Source: Gemmatimonadaceae bacterium (lineage in GTDB: Bacteria; Gemmatimonadota; Gemmatimonadetes; Gemmatimonadales; Gemmatimonadaceae). From it: a stretch of DNA of 64,000 nt. The notes under the pieces were generated by a model that had not been told where the DNA came from, did not search any database, and saw nothing but the letters and a program-made list of their open reading frames with translations. The stretch lies in NCBI GenBank assembly GCA_019637355.1, contig JAHBVT010000001.1, forward strand, positions 2,201,192 through 2,265,191, given 5' to 3'. Below are positions 11,102 to 63,962 of the stretch, in pieces (position 1 is the stretch's first letter; every line of letters begins with the position of its first letter). Made by a program: the position numbers and the translations under genes.

Positions 11102-11300
11102 GCGGCCGGGCGGGAGAGGGGAGGCGGGAGGAGGGTGAAGGCAGAAAGACGGGGAACGGGAGAAGACAGAAAGAGGGGAGATGGCGGGAAACGTCTCCCG
11201 GCCTTCTCCCCTCTCCCAACCATCTCCCGTCTCCCACCTACCTGCCGTCACCCACCTACCTGCCGTCACCCACCTCCCACCTCCCATCTCCCGGCTCCCA
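11102..11300. repeat. Purine/pyrimidine heptad-like repeat block with inverted repeats
   Basis: The first half (to about 11190) is purine-rich and the second half is pyrimidine-rich on the plus strand. GGGAGAGGGGAG at 11112-11123 is the exact reverse complement of 11206-11217, and GGGAGATGG at 11176-11184 pairs with 11220-11228, so several alternative hairpins are possible. The right half contains a perfect 18-bp tandem duplication (11235-11252 and 11253-11270) plus heptads of the form CCNNCTC. It fills the gap between rpoC and the next minus-strand gene and may end or attenuate the rpoBC transcript. Confidence 0.8.
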
Positions 11301-20850: not shown

Positions 20851-21336
20851 TTAGTTCGAACCTTCGAGCTGCGTCTTCTTCGCCTCGAGGGCGAGGGCGA
20901 ACATCGAGAGCACGCTGTTGAACGTGCCAACGAGGATCGACAGCGCCTCTTCGCGGGTCGGCATCGAGGCGAGCTTCTTCACCGTCGCCTCGTCTACGGC
21001 CTTGCCGTCCCAGAGCCCGCCCTTGATGGACGGCTTCGAGTCGTTTTCCTTCGCGAAGTCGGCGAGGAGCTTGGCCGCGGCGATGGCATCCTTCGCCACC
21101 ACGACGCCCGTGGGCCCCTTGAGCGTCTGGCCGGTGAGGCCAGCCTCGTTCACCGCGCGCAGCGCGAGGGTGTTCTTGATGACCACGTACTCCACGCCGG
21201 CCTTGCGGAAGCGGCGGCGGAGGGTCGTCATCGACTTCACGTTGAGACCGGTGAAGTCCGTGTAATAGACCGCAGCGGCGCCCTCGAGCTTGCCCTTCAG
21301 CTCGGCGACGAGCTGGTCCTTGTCGGATCGCTTCAT
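20851..21336 (-). CDS. rplJ: 50S ribosomal protein L10
   Basis: 161 residues, normal length. The N-terminal RNA-binding domain ([20 protein letters not shown], then [17 protein letters not shown]) and the C-terminal helix that anchors L12 dimers are both present. It starts six bases after rplA stops, within the rplKAJL block. In other bacteria L10 or the L10-L12 complex represses its own mRNA; I do not see a convincing L10 leader in the six-base gap. Confidence 0.98.
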
Positions 21337-21342
21337 CGTGGG

Positions 21343-22032
21343 TTACCGGTACGGGGTGGTGTCGATTCGCAGGCCGGGCCCCATCGTGGAGCTCACGGCG
21401 ACGGTCTTGACGTACACGCCCTTCGACGCGGCGGGCTTGGACCGGATGATCTGGTCCATAAACGCGCCGAAGTTCTGCTCGAGGGCCTCGAGCCCGAACG
21501 AGACCTTGCCGATCGCGGCCTGGACATTGCCAGCCTTGTCGACGCGGAACTCGATCTTGCCCGCCTTCGTCTCCTTGACTGCCTGGGCCACATTGAACGT
21601 GACCGTGCCCGCCTTCGGGTTCGGCATCAGGCCGCGGGGACCGAGCACGCGACCCAGCTGGCCGACCTGGCCCATCTGGTCCGGCGTGGCGATCATCACG
21701 TCGAAGTCCGTCCAGCCATCCTTGATCTTCTGGATGAACTCCGTGCCGACGAAGTCGGCGCCGGCGGCCTCGGCTTCCTTCGCCTTGTCGCCGACGGCGA
21801 TGACGAGGACGCGGACCGACTTACCCGTGCCGGCGGGGAGCACCACCGTGCCACGGACCACCTGGTCCGCGTGGCGGGGATCCACACCGAGGCGCACCGC
21901 GATCTCGACCGTCTCGTCGAACTTGGCGAACGCCGCGTTCTTGACGGCCTCGAGGGCGGCCTTCGGGGTGTGCAGCGTGCCGGCGGCGATCTTCTCGGCC
22001 GCGGCGCGGTACTTCTTGCCGTGCGTCTTCAT
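21343..22032 (-). CDS. rplA: 50S ribosomal protein L1
   Basis: 229 residues. The rRNA-binding signature [19 protein letters not shown] is complete. ATG 22032 overlaps the rplK stop by four bases (ATGA), so the start is set by coupling; the longer frame upstream is simply rplK in another frame. L1 binds the L1 stalk of 23S rRNA and in many bacteria represses the rplK-rplA mRNA. Confidence 0.98.
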
Positions 22033-22451
22033 CCCTTCACCTCCACGCCCATCGACCGCGCGGCGCCGGCGATCATCGCCATCGCGCCCTCGAGCGAATC
22101 GGTGTTGAGGTCGGGCATCTTGAGTTCGGCGATCTTCCGGACCTGCGCCTGCGTGATCGCGCCGACCTTGTTGCGGTTCGGCTGACCCGAGCCCTTCTCG
22201 ATACCAGCTTCCTTCTTCACGAGGAACGCCGCGGGCGGCGTCTTCAGGATGAAGGTGAAGGACTTGTCGGCATAGATGGTGATCTCGACCGGCAGGATCG
22301 CATCCTGGCCCTGCGTCTTGGAGTTGAACTCCTTGCAGAATGCCATGATGTTGATGCCCTGCGGACCGAGAGCCGTACCGACCGGCGGGGCCGGATTCGC
22401 CTTGCCTGCAGGGATCTGCAGTTTGACGAAACCGGTGACCTTCTTGGCCAT
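22029..22451 (-). CDS. rplK: 50S ribosomal protein L11
   Basis: 140 residues with the N-terminal signature [20 protein letters not shown] and the C-terminal 23S rRNA-binding domain. It starts at ATG 22451 and is separated from nusG by a 244-base gap that holds a strong hairpin. One of the four CATG sites in the window lies here (22344-22347), in a conserved Ile-Met. Confidence 0.98.
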
Positions 22452-22628
22452 CTCTCCCTCTGGGAAAACGTGAAGCGTGCCCGGGCGCCGTCCTCACGGG
22501 ACGGGCTGGCGATGCACGCTGACTCCCACGTTGTTGTTTAGAGACGGTGTGGTGATCCGTCTGTGCGCTCCTCGATGGCGACTGTGACCTCAGCCATCTG
22601 CCCCGCGCAGGGGCATCTACAAGACTTC

Positions 22629-22691
22629 GGACGGATGACGGAGGACGGATGCACACGGAGCGGTATAGCCTCCGTCATCCGTCATCCGTCC
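22629..22691 (-). repeat. Heptamer-repeat hairpin after nusG
   Basis: The right arm, 22669-22691, is built of TCCGTCA/TCCGTCC heptamers; the left arm, 22629-22651, is its reverse complement with two mismatches, including a perfect outer 14-bp stem. The loop is 17 bases. On the minus strand it begins five bases after the nusG stop, in the nusG-rplK gap, so it could act as a terminator, attenuator or 3'-end stabiliser. No T-tract is seen. Confidence 0.8.
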
Positions 22692-22695
22692 CGAC

Positions 22696-23241
22696 TCAGT
22701 GTCCCTTCAGCTGCAAATAGTCGAGCTCCACCGAAGTGGGCCGCCCGAACAAACTCACGCTGACCCTGACCTTCCCCTTATCCGCCATCACGTCCTCGAC
22801 CGTTCCGTTGAAATCCGTGAACGGGCCGTCCGTGATCGCCACCGCCTGGCCGACGAGGAACGGAATCTCCTCCTTCGGAGCGGCCACTTCCTCTTCCACC
22901 GCGATGCCCAGCAGGCGCTTCACTTCGTCGTCCCGCAGCGCCTGCGGTTCGCGGTCCTTGGAGCCGACGAACTTGATCACGCCCTGGATGGCGTTGATCG
23001 TGTGCAGCGTCTCCTCGCTGATCGCCATCTCCACGAGCACGTAGCCCGGGTAGACCTTGCGATCGACCGTCACCTTCTTGCCGTTCTTGATCTCGACCAC
23101 CTGCTCGGTCGGGACCAGCGCCTGCCGGATGCGCCGTTCGTCGGGCGCCGCCGGATCCGCGTCGATCTTCCGCTGGATCAGCGTGCGCACCTTGTTCTCG
23201 TGGCCAGAGGTCGTCTGGACGGCGTACCAGCGATGGGTCAC
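22696..23241 (-). CDS. nusG: Transcription termination/antitermination factor NusG
   Basis: 181 residues. NGN domain first ([19 protein letters not shown] and [10 protein letters not shown]), then a KOW domain ([20 protein letters not shown]). The start is GTG 23241, set by GGAG eight bases upstream; a TTG two codons earlier is too close to that site. It begins two bases after the secE stop. NusG binds the RNA polymerase clamp and links it to Rho or the ribosome. Confidence 0.98.
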
Positions 23242-23243
23242 GG

Positions 23244-23477
23244 TCAAGCTCCGAAGAGTGCCGGAATCCCGCGCACCAGCACCGCCTGCAGCACGAGGTC
23301 GAGCAGCCAGATCACCGCGCCGATGAACAGCGAGAGCCCGATCACGCCGATCGAGAGCTGCTGCACCTGCGGGCGCTCCGGCCACGTGACCTTGCGCATC
23401 TCCGTCACCACTTCGTTCCAGAAGTTGGCGACGCGCGCCGGCAGCGACGGCTGGGCCTGCACGACCTCGCCGGCCAC
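23244..23477 (-). CDS. secE: Preprotein translocase subunit SecE
   Basis: 77 residues, single membrane segment form. The conserved cytoplasmic amphipathic helix FWNEVVTEMRKVTWPERPQV precedes a hydrophobic helix from about residue 42 on. The start codon is GTG at 23477, abutting the rpmG stop with no gap. It forms the SecYEG channel. Confidence 0.97.
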   Translation of the reverse strand: MAGEVVQAQPSLPARVANFWNEVVTEMRKVTWPERPQVQQLSIGVIGLSLFIGAVIWLLDLVLQAVLVRGIPALFGA

Positions 23478-23630
23478 TTACTTCGTCTCCTTGTGGAGCA
23501 TGTGCTTGTTGCAGCGCGGGCAGTACTTCTTCCACTCGACGCGCTCCGGGTGCAGGCGCTTGTTCTTCGTGGTGAAGTAGTTGCGGTTCTTGCACTCACT
23601 GCACGCGAGGATGATCTTGTCGCGCGGCAT
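23478..23630 (-). CDS. rpmG: 50S ribosomal protein L33
   Basis: A 50-residue protein beginning [19 protein letters not shown] and ending in a Cys-Pro-Arg-Cys pair, giving the four-cysteine zinc-ribbon (C+) version of L33. It is the first gene of the operon leading to rpoC; rpmG-secE-nusG is a widely conserved order. CATG at 23499-23502 falls in its conserved His-Met. Confidence 0.97.
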
Positions 23631-23724
23631 AAGTCACTCACTGGTCAGGCGTTCACCGGCGCCCCCGCAGGGACGCGACAGGCCACCCAACGCCCGGACT
23701 TGGGCGCTTGGCGGCGAGCCTTGA

Positions 23725-23753
23725 AACGTAGACGGGATAGCGAATCGTTGCAA
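23725..23753 (-). promoter_or_regulatory. Candidate promoter of the rpmG-rpoC operon
   Basis: On the minus strand TTGCAA (23753-23748) and TACGTT (23730-23725) are separated by 17 bases and lie about 95 bases upstream of rpmG. Spacing and the TTG fit a housekeeping sigma promoter; the -10 element is only a fair match. Confidence 0.4.
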
Positions 23754-23808
23754 GTCCCGCCTCCGGGCCAGTTTGCGCGCCCGCCAAAGCCCTGCCCCGC
23801 AAACCCTC

Positions 23809-23855
23809 TTGCGCTCCGGCCTGTCAAACCTATACATAGTTCTGACTAGTATAGG
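23809..23855 (+). promoter_or_regulatory. Candidate promoter and PadR-type operator upstream of padR-like gene
   Basis: TTGCGC (23809-23814) and TATACA (23831-23836) lie 16 bases apart. The -10 element is embedded in an inverted repeat, CCTATAC (23829-23835) and GTATAGG (23849-23855), ending eight bases before the ATG at 23863. PadR-family regulators usually bind such palindromes and repress their own operon, so autoregulation is a reasonable inference. Confidence 0.5.
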
Positions 23856-23862
23856 AGCCCCT

Positions 23863-24201
23863 ATGACCGACCTGACCGCCGGACTGCTCGCGGGCACGCT
23901 GGACCTGCTCATCCTCAAGACCCTCTCCTTCGGCGCACTGCACGGCTACGGGATCGCCCAGAACATCAGGCGCTTCTCCGGCGACGCCCTGCGCGTCGAG
24001 GAGGGCTCGCTGTACCCGGCGCTCCAGCGGATGCAGGTCAAGGGCTGGGTGCGCTCCCAACTGCAACGCACCCCGACCGGACGCACGGGCCGCTACTACG
24101 AGCTCACCGACGACGGCCGCACACAGCTCGGCCACGAGTCCGAGAGCTTCCTGCGCTCGGCTGCGGCCACGACGCGCGTGCTGCGGAGCACGGCAGGATG
24201 A
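23863..24201 (+). CDS. PadR-family transcriptional regulator
   Basis: 112 residues of winged-helix PadR type: LAGTLDLLILKTLSFGALHG followed by GYGIAQNIRR and EEGSLYPALQRMQVKGW are the family hallmarks. GGAG precedes the ATG at 23863. The stop overlaps the next start by four bases (ATGA), so it is coupled to the permease. PadR plus ADOP permease pairs are very common in Acidobacteriota and Gemmatimonadota; the effector is unknown. Confidence 0.93.
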   Translation: MTDLTAGLLAGTLDLLILKTLSFGALHGYGIAQNIRRFSGDALRVEEGSLYPALQRMQVKGWVRSQLQRTPTGRTGRYYELTDDGRTQLGHESESFLRSAAATTRVLRSTAG

Positions 24202-62687: not shown

Positions 62688-63857
62688 ATGCCCGCCTTCC
62701 ACGACACCCCGCGCTTCCCGCGCGGGTTCCGCTGCGCCTCCCGCAACGTCGGTCTCAAGCCGGACGCCAAGGACCTCACGCTCTTCGCCAGCGAGGTCGA
62801 AGCCACCGCGGCGGCGGTCTTCACGCGCAATCACTTCCCCGGCGCGCCCATCGTGCTCGGCCGCGAGACGCTCAAGGCCGGACGGCTGATGGGCATCATC
62901 GCGAACAGCAAGGTGAGCAACGTCGCGACCGGTGCCGAGGGCGTGGCGAACGCGCGTCGGATGGCGGCGGCCGCCGCGGCGGAGCTCGGCACCACGCCGG
63001 ACCGAATCCTCGTGAGCTCCACCGGCGTGATCGGAGTGCCGCTGCCGATCGAGAAGATCGAGCGCGGTGTGGTCGGGATGCGCGCTGAGCTGCAGGACAA
63101 CCCGCTGGTCGGCGCCGAAGGCATTATGACCACCGACACCTTCCCCAAGGCGTTCTCGCTGTCGGTCGGCGAGGCGACGATTACGTGGGTGGCGAAGGGT
63201 TCGGGGATGATCGAGCCGAATATGGCGACGATGTTAGCCTACATCTTCACCGACGCCGCGCTCGACGCCGCAACGTTGGACCGCCTGTTGCGCGAGGCGG
63301 TCGAACGATCCTTCAATATGTTGAGCGTGGACACGGACACGTCCACCAGCGATACCTGCGCGATCCTCGCCAACGGGCTGGCAGGTGCGGTGGACGAGCA
63401 GGCGTTCCGCGAGGCGCTCATCGCCGGCTGCATCCGGATGACCGAGACGCTCGGGCGCGACGGCGAAGGCGCGGAGCACCTCCTGCGCGTGACCGTGCGA
63501 GGCGCACTGAACGACGCCGAGGCGCGCCGCGTCGCCAAGAGCGTCCTCAACTCGCCGCTGGTGAAGACGATGGTCCACGGCGCCGACCCGAACGTCGGGC
63601 GCCTGCTGATGGCGGTGGGCAAGTGCTTCGAGTGCCGCATCCAGCCGTCCACGACCGATGCGTGGATCAATGGCTTCCAGGTGGTGCGCGGCGGCGCGCG
63701 GCTGCCCTTTGACGATGCCGTCGTGCGCGAGGCGCTGACGGCCGAGGTCGTGGACCTCGAACTCGCACTCGGCGTCGGCGAGGCGCGGGCGGTGGCCTAC
63801 GGCTGCGACCTCAGCAAGGGCTACGTGGAGGAGAACGCGGCGTACTACTCGAGCTGA
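62688..63857 (+). CDS. argJ: Bifunctional glutamate N-acetyltransferase/amino-acid acetyltransferase
   Basis: 389 residues. The self-cleavage site is KGSGMIEPNMATML, with the nucleophile Thr181 at the new beta-chain N-terminus. ArgJ transfers acetyl from N-acetylornithine to glutamate in arginine synthesis and, in bifunctional forms, also uses acetyl-CoA. Other arg genes are not in this window. Arginine is half of the cyanophycin monomer, so a link to the cphA operon 10 kb away is metabolic, not genetic. Confidence 0.97.
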   Translation: MPAFHDTPRFPRGFRCASRNVGLKPDAKDLTLFASEVEATAAAVFTRNHFPGAPIVLGRETLKAGRLMGIIANSKVSNVATGAEGVANARRMAAAAAAELGTTPDRILVSSTGVIGVPLPIEKIERGVVGMRAELQDNPLVGAEGIMTTDTFPKAFSLSVGEATITWVAKGSGMIEPNMATMLAYIFTDAALDAATLDRLLREAVERSFNMLSVDTDTSTSDTCAILANGLAGAVDEQAFREALIAGCIRMTETLGRDGEGAEHLLRVTVRGALNDAEARRVAKSVLNSPLVKTMVHGADPNVGRLLMAVGKCFECRIQPSTTDAWINGFQVVRGGARLPFDDAVVREALTAEVVDLELALGVGEARAVAYGCDLSKGYVEENAAYYSS

Positions 63858-63867
63858 GTGAATGACG

Positions 63868-63962
63868 GAGGACTGAAGACGGGGGATGGAAGAGTGAAGA
63901 GCACCGCGCAGCTTCCGTCATCCGTCATCCGTCGTCCGTCATCCGTCATCCGTCATCCGTCG
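63868..63962. repeat. Heptamer array folded against a purine-rich arm
   Basis: Seven tandem copies of TCCGTCA or TCCGTCG run from 63914 to 63962. The preceding 40 bases (about 63861-63897) are a degenerate purine-rich complement (ATGACGGAGGACTGAAGACG), so the block can fold into an imperfect hairpin. It follows argJ by about ten bases and sits between argJ and a possible convergent gene. Confidence 0.85.

Follow-up and report, generated by a model that had tools for sequence, protein, structure and literature searches.

Cyanobacterial STRR heptanucleotide repeats are tandem repeats of 7 nt, a trait shared with the family described here. The closest known kind, however, is that of the Xanthomonas and Nostoc heptamers, GGGAATC and GGGGA(C/T)T, which Rehm et al. 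(2015) describe as intergenic and of unknown function, counting 70 convergent inverted cases in one Xanthomonas genome and 75 in another (PMC4692102). Both families, as far as that account describes them, consist of tandem, heterogeneous 7-nt units that are intergenic and scarce between divergent genes; in both the G-rich strand is sense after stops and antisense before starts, stop codons are overlapped, inverted convergent pairs are numerous, and the sequences vary between close species (PMC4692102). They differ in that the Xanthomonas and Nostoc units have quadruplex-capable runs of three or more Gs, whereas the GACGGAT unit here has no GGG; in that the word here changes within one genus, with several words and unit lengths of 7, 8, 9 and 11 nt among the genomes sampled; and in that the arms here are matched per genome across a conserved terminator, so that, set against what is described there, it is the dialects and the coordinated rewriting of arms that are new (PMC4692102). 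GACGGAA units, like those of GACGGAT, contain only GG, while GGG is present in some other dialects; lacking a run of three Gs, GACGGAT offers no obvious quadruplex. No description of such repeats in Gemmatimonadota was found among the literature titles and abstract openings that were covered.

The TAACTGA repeats of Beggiatoaceae are also 7-nt intergenic direct repeats, and their forward word supplies stops in all three frames, as do the GACGGAT repeats here; unlike ours, they are described as one fixed word lying mostly just before start codons, in 169 direct sets and a single inverted one rather than in paired arms (PMC4679880). Selection of the word as an all-frame stop was rejected as a general rule, because the TGA present in GACGGAT repeats is missing from repeats of GACGGAA, GACGGAG and the GATGGCA type (L040). 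DNA uptake sequences (DUS) are 10–12 nt long. Those of Neisseriaceae share with our family the occurrence of species dialects and of inverted pairs at gene ends, which are there linked with terminators, but they are described as single words that are frequent inside genes too, unlike the tandem arrays here (PMC3630211). REP, BIME and REPIN sequences are likewise small, many-copy intergenic palindromes, but the stems here are made of tandem units and have no shared loop among the matches listed (PMC3733652).

The hairpin in the nusG-rplK gap

The window is the whole 64,000-nt stretch of DNA that was analysed, and the genome carrying it is 3.15 Mb; the features discussed are collected in Table 1. 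A preliminary description had pointed to a hairpin in the nusG-rplK gap that is built of TCCGTCA, the unit of a distant array in the window, and that starts right after the nusG stop, and both observations are confirmed: four bases (22695-22692) lie between the stop and arm 1, and the stem begins on the fifth. The 21-nt arms have one mismatch in 21 pairs. The hairpin has a predicted minimum free energy of −48.5 kcal/mol, whereas shuffled versions average −26.8 (z −6.6) and none of 200 is as stable, in agreement with the earlier suggestion that a stem-loop can form.

Table 1. Coordinates of the features discussed; positions without an L handle are those of the window.
Feature	Position	Strand	Remarks
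nusG	22696-23241	−	181 aa; stop TGA 22698-22696; name from Pfam
Hairpin arm 1	22671-22691	−	Purine-rich, first in transcript: GGACGGATGACGGATGACGGA
Hairpin loop	22650-22670	−	21 nt; by eye, without counterpart at the other family sites listed
Hairpin arm 2	22629-22649	−	Pyrimidine-rich: TCCGTCCTCCGTCATCCGTCC
rplK leader	22452-22617	−	Conserved and structured, downstream of hairpin
rplK (L11)	22029-22451	−	Name from Pfam
argJ	62688-63857	+	Stop precedes the TCCGTCA array element; name from Pfam
Arm of argJ element	63862-63892	+	Degenerate, purine-rich
TCCGTCA array	63914-63961	+	6.9 copies; pyrimidine-rich arm of argJ element
Element of equal build, other words	11111-11293	.	GGGAGA / CATCTCC types
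Genes ending inside GACGGATGA repeat	L143:5331-6029; L147:12102-15299; L157:14748-16031		L143 gene is queC, name from Pfam
Terminator and CATATT box	L268-L281, from sigma factor stop to next gene		Box −10-like
Elements with CACAGAGG or CACGAAGG units	L149:8492-8788; L150:1203-1325; L157:12043-12176; L180:6310-6371		
GCGGTTGTGGGGC-type palindrome arrays	L156:7994-19971; L160:14521-17301; L169:6748-12935		

This stable fold, and the GC-rich stem soon after a stop that is characteristic of intrinsic terminators, are what would be expected if the repeats were selected as transcription terminators that dispense with a U-tract, or as stabilizers of mRNA 3′ ends, which would here separate secE-nusG from the L11 unit. 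The GC-rich stem would form as RNA polymerase leaves the gene, and being a palindrome it would work both ways; the RNA-DNA hybrid of a pyrimidine-rich 3′ arm is weak. We regard this explanation as rather unlikely, and we note that there is no U-tract directly 3′ of the nusG-rplK stem. An Rfam search of positions 21000-24000 returned 11 matches, all below gathering scores and mostly to microRNA precursor models lying on the stem.

Alignment of this gap in relatives, as proposed in the preliminary description, gives a divided result. The nusG locus was absent from the results for three of 17 genus genomes (G002, G006 and G016), and among the remaining 14 the insert is present in eight, with 81–140 nt from the nusG stop to the rplK leader, and absent from six, with 13–20 nt, while the leader is found in all 14. 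Genomes with the short gap are all 2.3 Mb or smaller and those with the long gap all 3.0 Mb or larger, as judged from assemblies of which some are incomplete, and the six small ones may form one clade; size is not the whole explanation, since the sigma locus of G004 (1.9 Mb) carries paired arms. Six of the eight long gaps fold with z of −4.2 or below (100 mononucleotide shuffles each), and the other two, in G005 (z −1.3) and G003 (z −1.1), do not reach that value. With the insert missing from six genus members that all keep the leader, the element is evidently dispensable after nusG, which counts against a selected terminator or stabilizer. It also leaves unsupported, in the form in which it was stated, the earlier proposal that the hairpin tunes read-through into the ribosomal protein genes; furthermore, a consensus scan of 22400-22760 found neither terminator-like nor promoter-like sites, and the near-stop start is typical of the whole family (24 of 29 same-strand cases) rather than specific to this operon. 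The nusG-rplK stem may have a mild effect on read-through or on 3′-end stability.

The rplK leader has 67 invariant columns among 169, and 13 of its 34 predicted pairs show changes on both sides; because the structure and the pair counts come from one alignment, the covariation leans towards that structure. It has no Rfam matches at E of 10 or below (22452-22617), and it contains the motifs UACCAC and GUGGGAG, which may correspond to those of L1-binding sites; it is possibly an autogenous L1/L11 leader. Since the leader is kept in 14/14 genus members and the element in 8/14, control of rplK more likely resides in the leader.

A wider set of 54 nusG loci, from which L095 was left out as it has no rplK, comprises 45 distinct gaps after removal of nine duplicates. 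A gapless inverted repeat starts within 60 nt of the nusG stop in 20 of these, and in L048 and L051, two of the other 25, heptamer arms are nevertheless visible that the gapless search did not pick up. The words following nusG vary, and include GACGGAA, GATGTGA/GATGGGA, GATGAAG, GATGGTA, GTTGGAA and GTGGGGA, among others.

A genome-wide family and its dialects

The nusG hairpin belongs to a family of inverted tandem repeats spread through the genome and is not specific to its operon. The TCCGTCA array is the same kind of element, as is evident from its position after the argJ stop and from the degenerate arm that opposes it. The single TCCGTCA heptamer is weakly enriched in the window (19 versus 10.8 expected; 2 of 100 shuffles reach 19), and across the genome the tandem form greatly exceeds chance: a 20-mer of three units has 164 forward and 187 reverse matches at up to three mismatches, versus 1 and 1 for a reversed control. 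A strict hairpin pattern, with the purine arm first and a spacer of 6–36 nt, gives 59 overlapping matches at no fewer than 30 separate sites, and the same pattern with its arms in the opposite order gives none genome-wide. Long inverted repeats (score of at least 17) occur in a 464-kb sample at 0.43 per kb of intergenic and 0.005 per kb of coding DNA, and lag-7 identity is the highest of lags 2–14 after the nusG, sigma and ndk stops. The same build is seen at many gene ends genome-wide, and the earlier view that an amplifying repeat is tolerated after nusG thus holds.

So many similar hairpins in one genome, in a wording that is absent from 56 of 61 genomes, recall mobile palindromes of the REP, REPIN or MITE type that a transposase copies. 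Such an origin seems most improbable, however, because the spacers differ from site to site among the matches listed (by eye), the nusG and sigma sites bear other words in other species, and the genome (96.5% complete) has no match to the REP-associated tyrosine transposase (Y1_Tnp, RAYT-type), a profile for which the control was positive in 5 of 14 genomes. As for the REP tags, GTAG is absent from the unit, and CGTC lies inside each unit of the GACGGA dialect and is absent in other dialects.

The strict GACGGA hairpin occurs in five of the 61 genomes, with the 59 matches in the genome carrying the window, 21 in G007, and then two, one and one; the units in G007 are mostly GACGGAA with GG..CC beside the loop, and those in the genome carrying the window mostly GACGGAT with GC..GC. 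To compare words more generally we took the 60 nt that follow the stop at each of three loci, keeping 25 of 42 sites and dropping 17 with a lag-7 score below 0.52. Likeness of the R-arm words averages 15.97 between different loci within one genome (n=16, range 4–30.5) and 7.78 between genomes (n=183), the within-genome value being higher (permutation p 0.0005) in a set in which most genomes are probably MAGs and the species are not phylogenetically independent; the same locus compared between genomes gives 11.94, a value raised artificially by the terminator that is conserved at the sigma locus. By this measure the words are genome-specific and alike across the loci of one genome, with the exception of G015, in which the sigma and nusG words differ.

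This likeness across loci, together with the dialects and gene-end inverted pairs also known for DUS, could point to a sequence-specific DNA signal of that type, in which a protein prefers the word, uptake or binding spreads it, and inverted pairs settle at gene ends (PMC3630211). We give little credence to this idea. Several unrelated words stand side by side within one genome, and over-representation that extends into genes, as in DUS, is not clearly seen in the coding DNA of the 464-kb sample, where GACGGAT is present 67 times, compared with 47 ± 45 among 420 composition-matched seven-mers.

At other orthologous gene ends the element is sporadic. Within the genus, ndk is followed by a repeat hairpin in G000, G007 and G009 (3 of 14) and argJ in G000 and in G015, where the units are CACAGAG (2 of 16); the partial matches L250 (ndk) and L267 (argJ) are excluded, and the remaining ends have a simple hairpin or none. 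Gain and loss are thus frequent, and because most relatives lack the element at these loci, the sigma and nusG loci are the main basis for cross-species arm matching.

Several other repeats were observed. Gene-end inverted repeats with 8–9 nt units, CACAGAGG or CACGAAGG, are a second build beside the 7-nt one in the same genus. In G032 (L201-L220), inverted repeats at gene ends are numerous and fall into six or more unit types, with periods of 7, 8, 9 and 11; the CTCCACG type there breaks the usual polarity, being pyrimidine-first in three of the four cases seen. AACTGC / AACTGCAGTT recurs in loops or at repeat borders in G007 and G011. There are also arrays of 17–19 nt palindromes of the GCGGTTGTGGGGC type with loops of 19–27 nt, four of these palindromes in L156 being at an exact spacing of 376 nt; the arrays are possibly attC-like sites belonging to a chromosomal integron.

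Placement at gene ends and terminator-like features

Genes were called with a hexamer model built for this analysis rather than taken from published annotation, and some starts are wrong, giving distances such as −80. We collected 65 unit clusters, 37 of them with both arms; 12 of the 37 come from an even sample that includes the window, and the rest from loci chosen by repeat pattern. These 37 are distributed among same-strand gaps (18 + 11), convergent gaps (5), divergent gaps (1) and locus edges (2), and the even-sample elements alone number 9, 2, 0 and 1 over the gap classes. When the two elements at locus edges are left out, one of 35 lies in a divergent gap, versus 50 of the 151 gaps of 60–1500 nt (p 9e-5), and divergent gaps are therefore avoided. 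The 29 same-strand cases have a median distance to the stop of 5 nt; 24 start within −20 to +10 nt of it, and 24 are nearer to the stop than to the next start (p 0.0005). The purine-rich strand is sense close to stops and antisense before starts, and a replication-bias reading of strand orientation was dropped, as the palindrome is identical on both strands. The heptamer GACGGATGA overlaps three gene ends, to which it supplies the last codons 'DG' and the TGA stop.

A separate census of convergent, tandem and divergent gaps is in agreement, with repeat hairpins in 3/17, 15/91 and 0/50 respectively for G000, in 3/15, 9/69 and 1/44 for G011, and in 16/32, 27/130 and 5/49 for G032, and in 0/162 gaps of G038. 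Purine-first polarity was seen in 17/18, 13/13 and 42/49 of the census repeat hairpins; simple hairpins lean this way less, with 49 purine-first, 19 pyrimidine-first and 12 equal (n=80, four genomes).

The position close to stops, the scarcity between divergent genes and the rate in G032, highest in convergent gaps, are all as expected of a selected terminator or 3′-end stabilizer. We also considered runaway transcription (PMC13323073) as a conceivable reason for stop-proximal stems. In the same G032 gaps, repeat hairpins (16/32) and simple hairpins (5/32) never occur together (p 0.04, in one of the three genomes tested); in G011, by contrast, two of the 15 convergent gaps contain both kinds. 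The T-tails are no more consistent: in the genome carrying the window, T follows 21 repeat hairpins at 0.14–0.38 per position, with no clear U-tract, and 10 simple ones at up to 0.5, whereas in G011 the DNA after nine repeat hairpins is T-rich (0.22–0.67), above that after 18 simple ones (0.11–0.39). As these two genomes point in opposite directions, the comparison is mixed. Selection on the sense transcript should also leave more G-U than A-C among imperfect pairs, and the 83 repeat hairpins, with 63 G-U and 54 A-C, have no clear excess (p 0.46); the positive control of 25 simple hairpins gives 22 and 12 (p 0.12) and is hence a weak one, and RNA-level selection gains no support from this test. 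We retain the terminator explanation because of the exclusion in G032, the T-rich flank in G011 and the position at 3′ ends.

We also considered the loop as a general holder of terminators. An inner simple hairpin is present in at least 7 of 27 loops of 25 nt or more, versus 22 of 615 random 80-nt segments, and the former is a lower bound, since the terminator at the sigma locus of the genome carrying the window was missed by the search. There is thus some excess of inner hairpins, which falls short of a rule, and the idea was rejected as a general one.

Complementary arms at the sigma-factor locus and their origin

The sigma-factor gene encodes sigma-70 regions 1.2 to 4, and on its 3′ side a terminator (identified by eye) and a CATATT box (identified by script) are present in 12 of 14 genus members. 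In nine genomes gapless paired heptamer arms, 79–106 nt apart, enclose the terminator and the box, and the pyrimidine-rich arm adjoins the start of the next gene. We scored the first arm region against the reverse complement of the second in 11 genomes, three of the 14 being excluded (G001 and G013 for short gaps, and G010 because its next start was unmatched by the pattern). The mean score is 18.3 for an arm with its own partner and 7.9 with those of other genomes (permutation p 5e-5), and the own partner is the best match in 10 of the 11; the exception is G009, in which the first arm is a better fit to G016 and G011. That a canonical terminator already lies between these arms speaks against the arms themselves being terminators. 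To judge from this terminator and the promoter-like box, the two arms should lie in different transcripts; folding of a single RNA would then not maintain their complementarity, which argues for a process at the DNA level.

The family, its position and polarity, its genome-specific words and the matching of arms at one well-sampled locus are the observations to be accounted for, and we favor, with a little more than even confidence, a DNA-level repeat that is kept by slippage and template switching and is tolerated at gene ends, its RNA possibly forming a stem with a mild role. The layout is one of purine-rich 7-nt units, a site-specific spacer and complementary units, mostly directly after stops. 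Replication slippage in 7-nt steps would create and alter the repeats, and short template switches between the inverted repeats would copy one arm onto the other; both processes are inferred for this family, and template switching is described in the literature as both generating and maintaining hairpins (PMC8794818). Homogenization of units between loci could give each genome its own words. Selection probably excludes the repeats from coding and promoter DNA, so that they would persist at the 3′ ends of genes. If a single transcript includes both arms, which is probably the case after nusG, its RNA could form a strong stem that has no U-tract and that may shield the 3′ end of the mRNA or give slight help to termination, as a by-product or mild benefit and not as an essential switch.

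Two points weigh against this DNA-level origin: template switching alone leaves the strict purine-first polarity unexplained, a lean that simple, terminator-like hairpins have as well, and the mutual exclusion of repeat and simple hairpins in G032 favors a terminator-like role. Alternatively, an active process might place short tandem units at either end of intergenic segments, always with the purine strand inward, and keep the word uniform throughout the genome, although we think it quite unlikely that such a process is at work. If it is, many gene ends would switch dialect together and leave the intervening terminators and promoters where they are.

A stem that is kept at a site while its sequence is species-specific is usually taken as proof of selection for RNA structure. 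To judge from the sigma locus, DNA-level mutation can yield an equal, covariation-like pattern, which matters for covariation-based RNA discovery. The dialects also make bacterial heptamer repeats testable, since arm conversion and exchange between loci are measurable in closely related strains.
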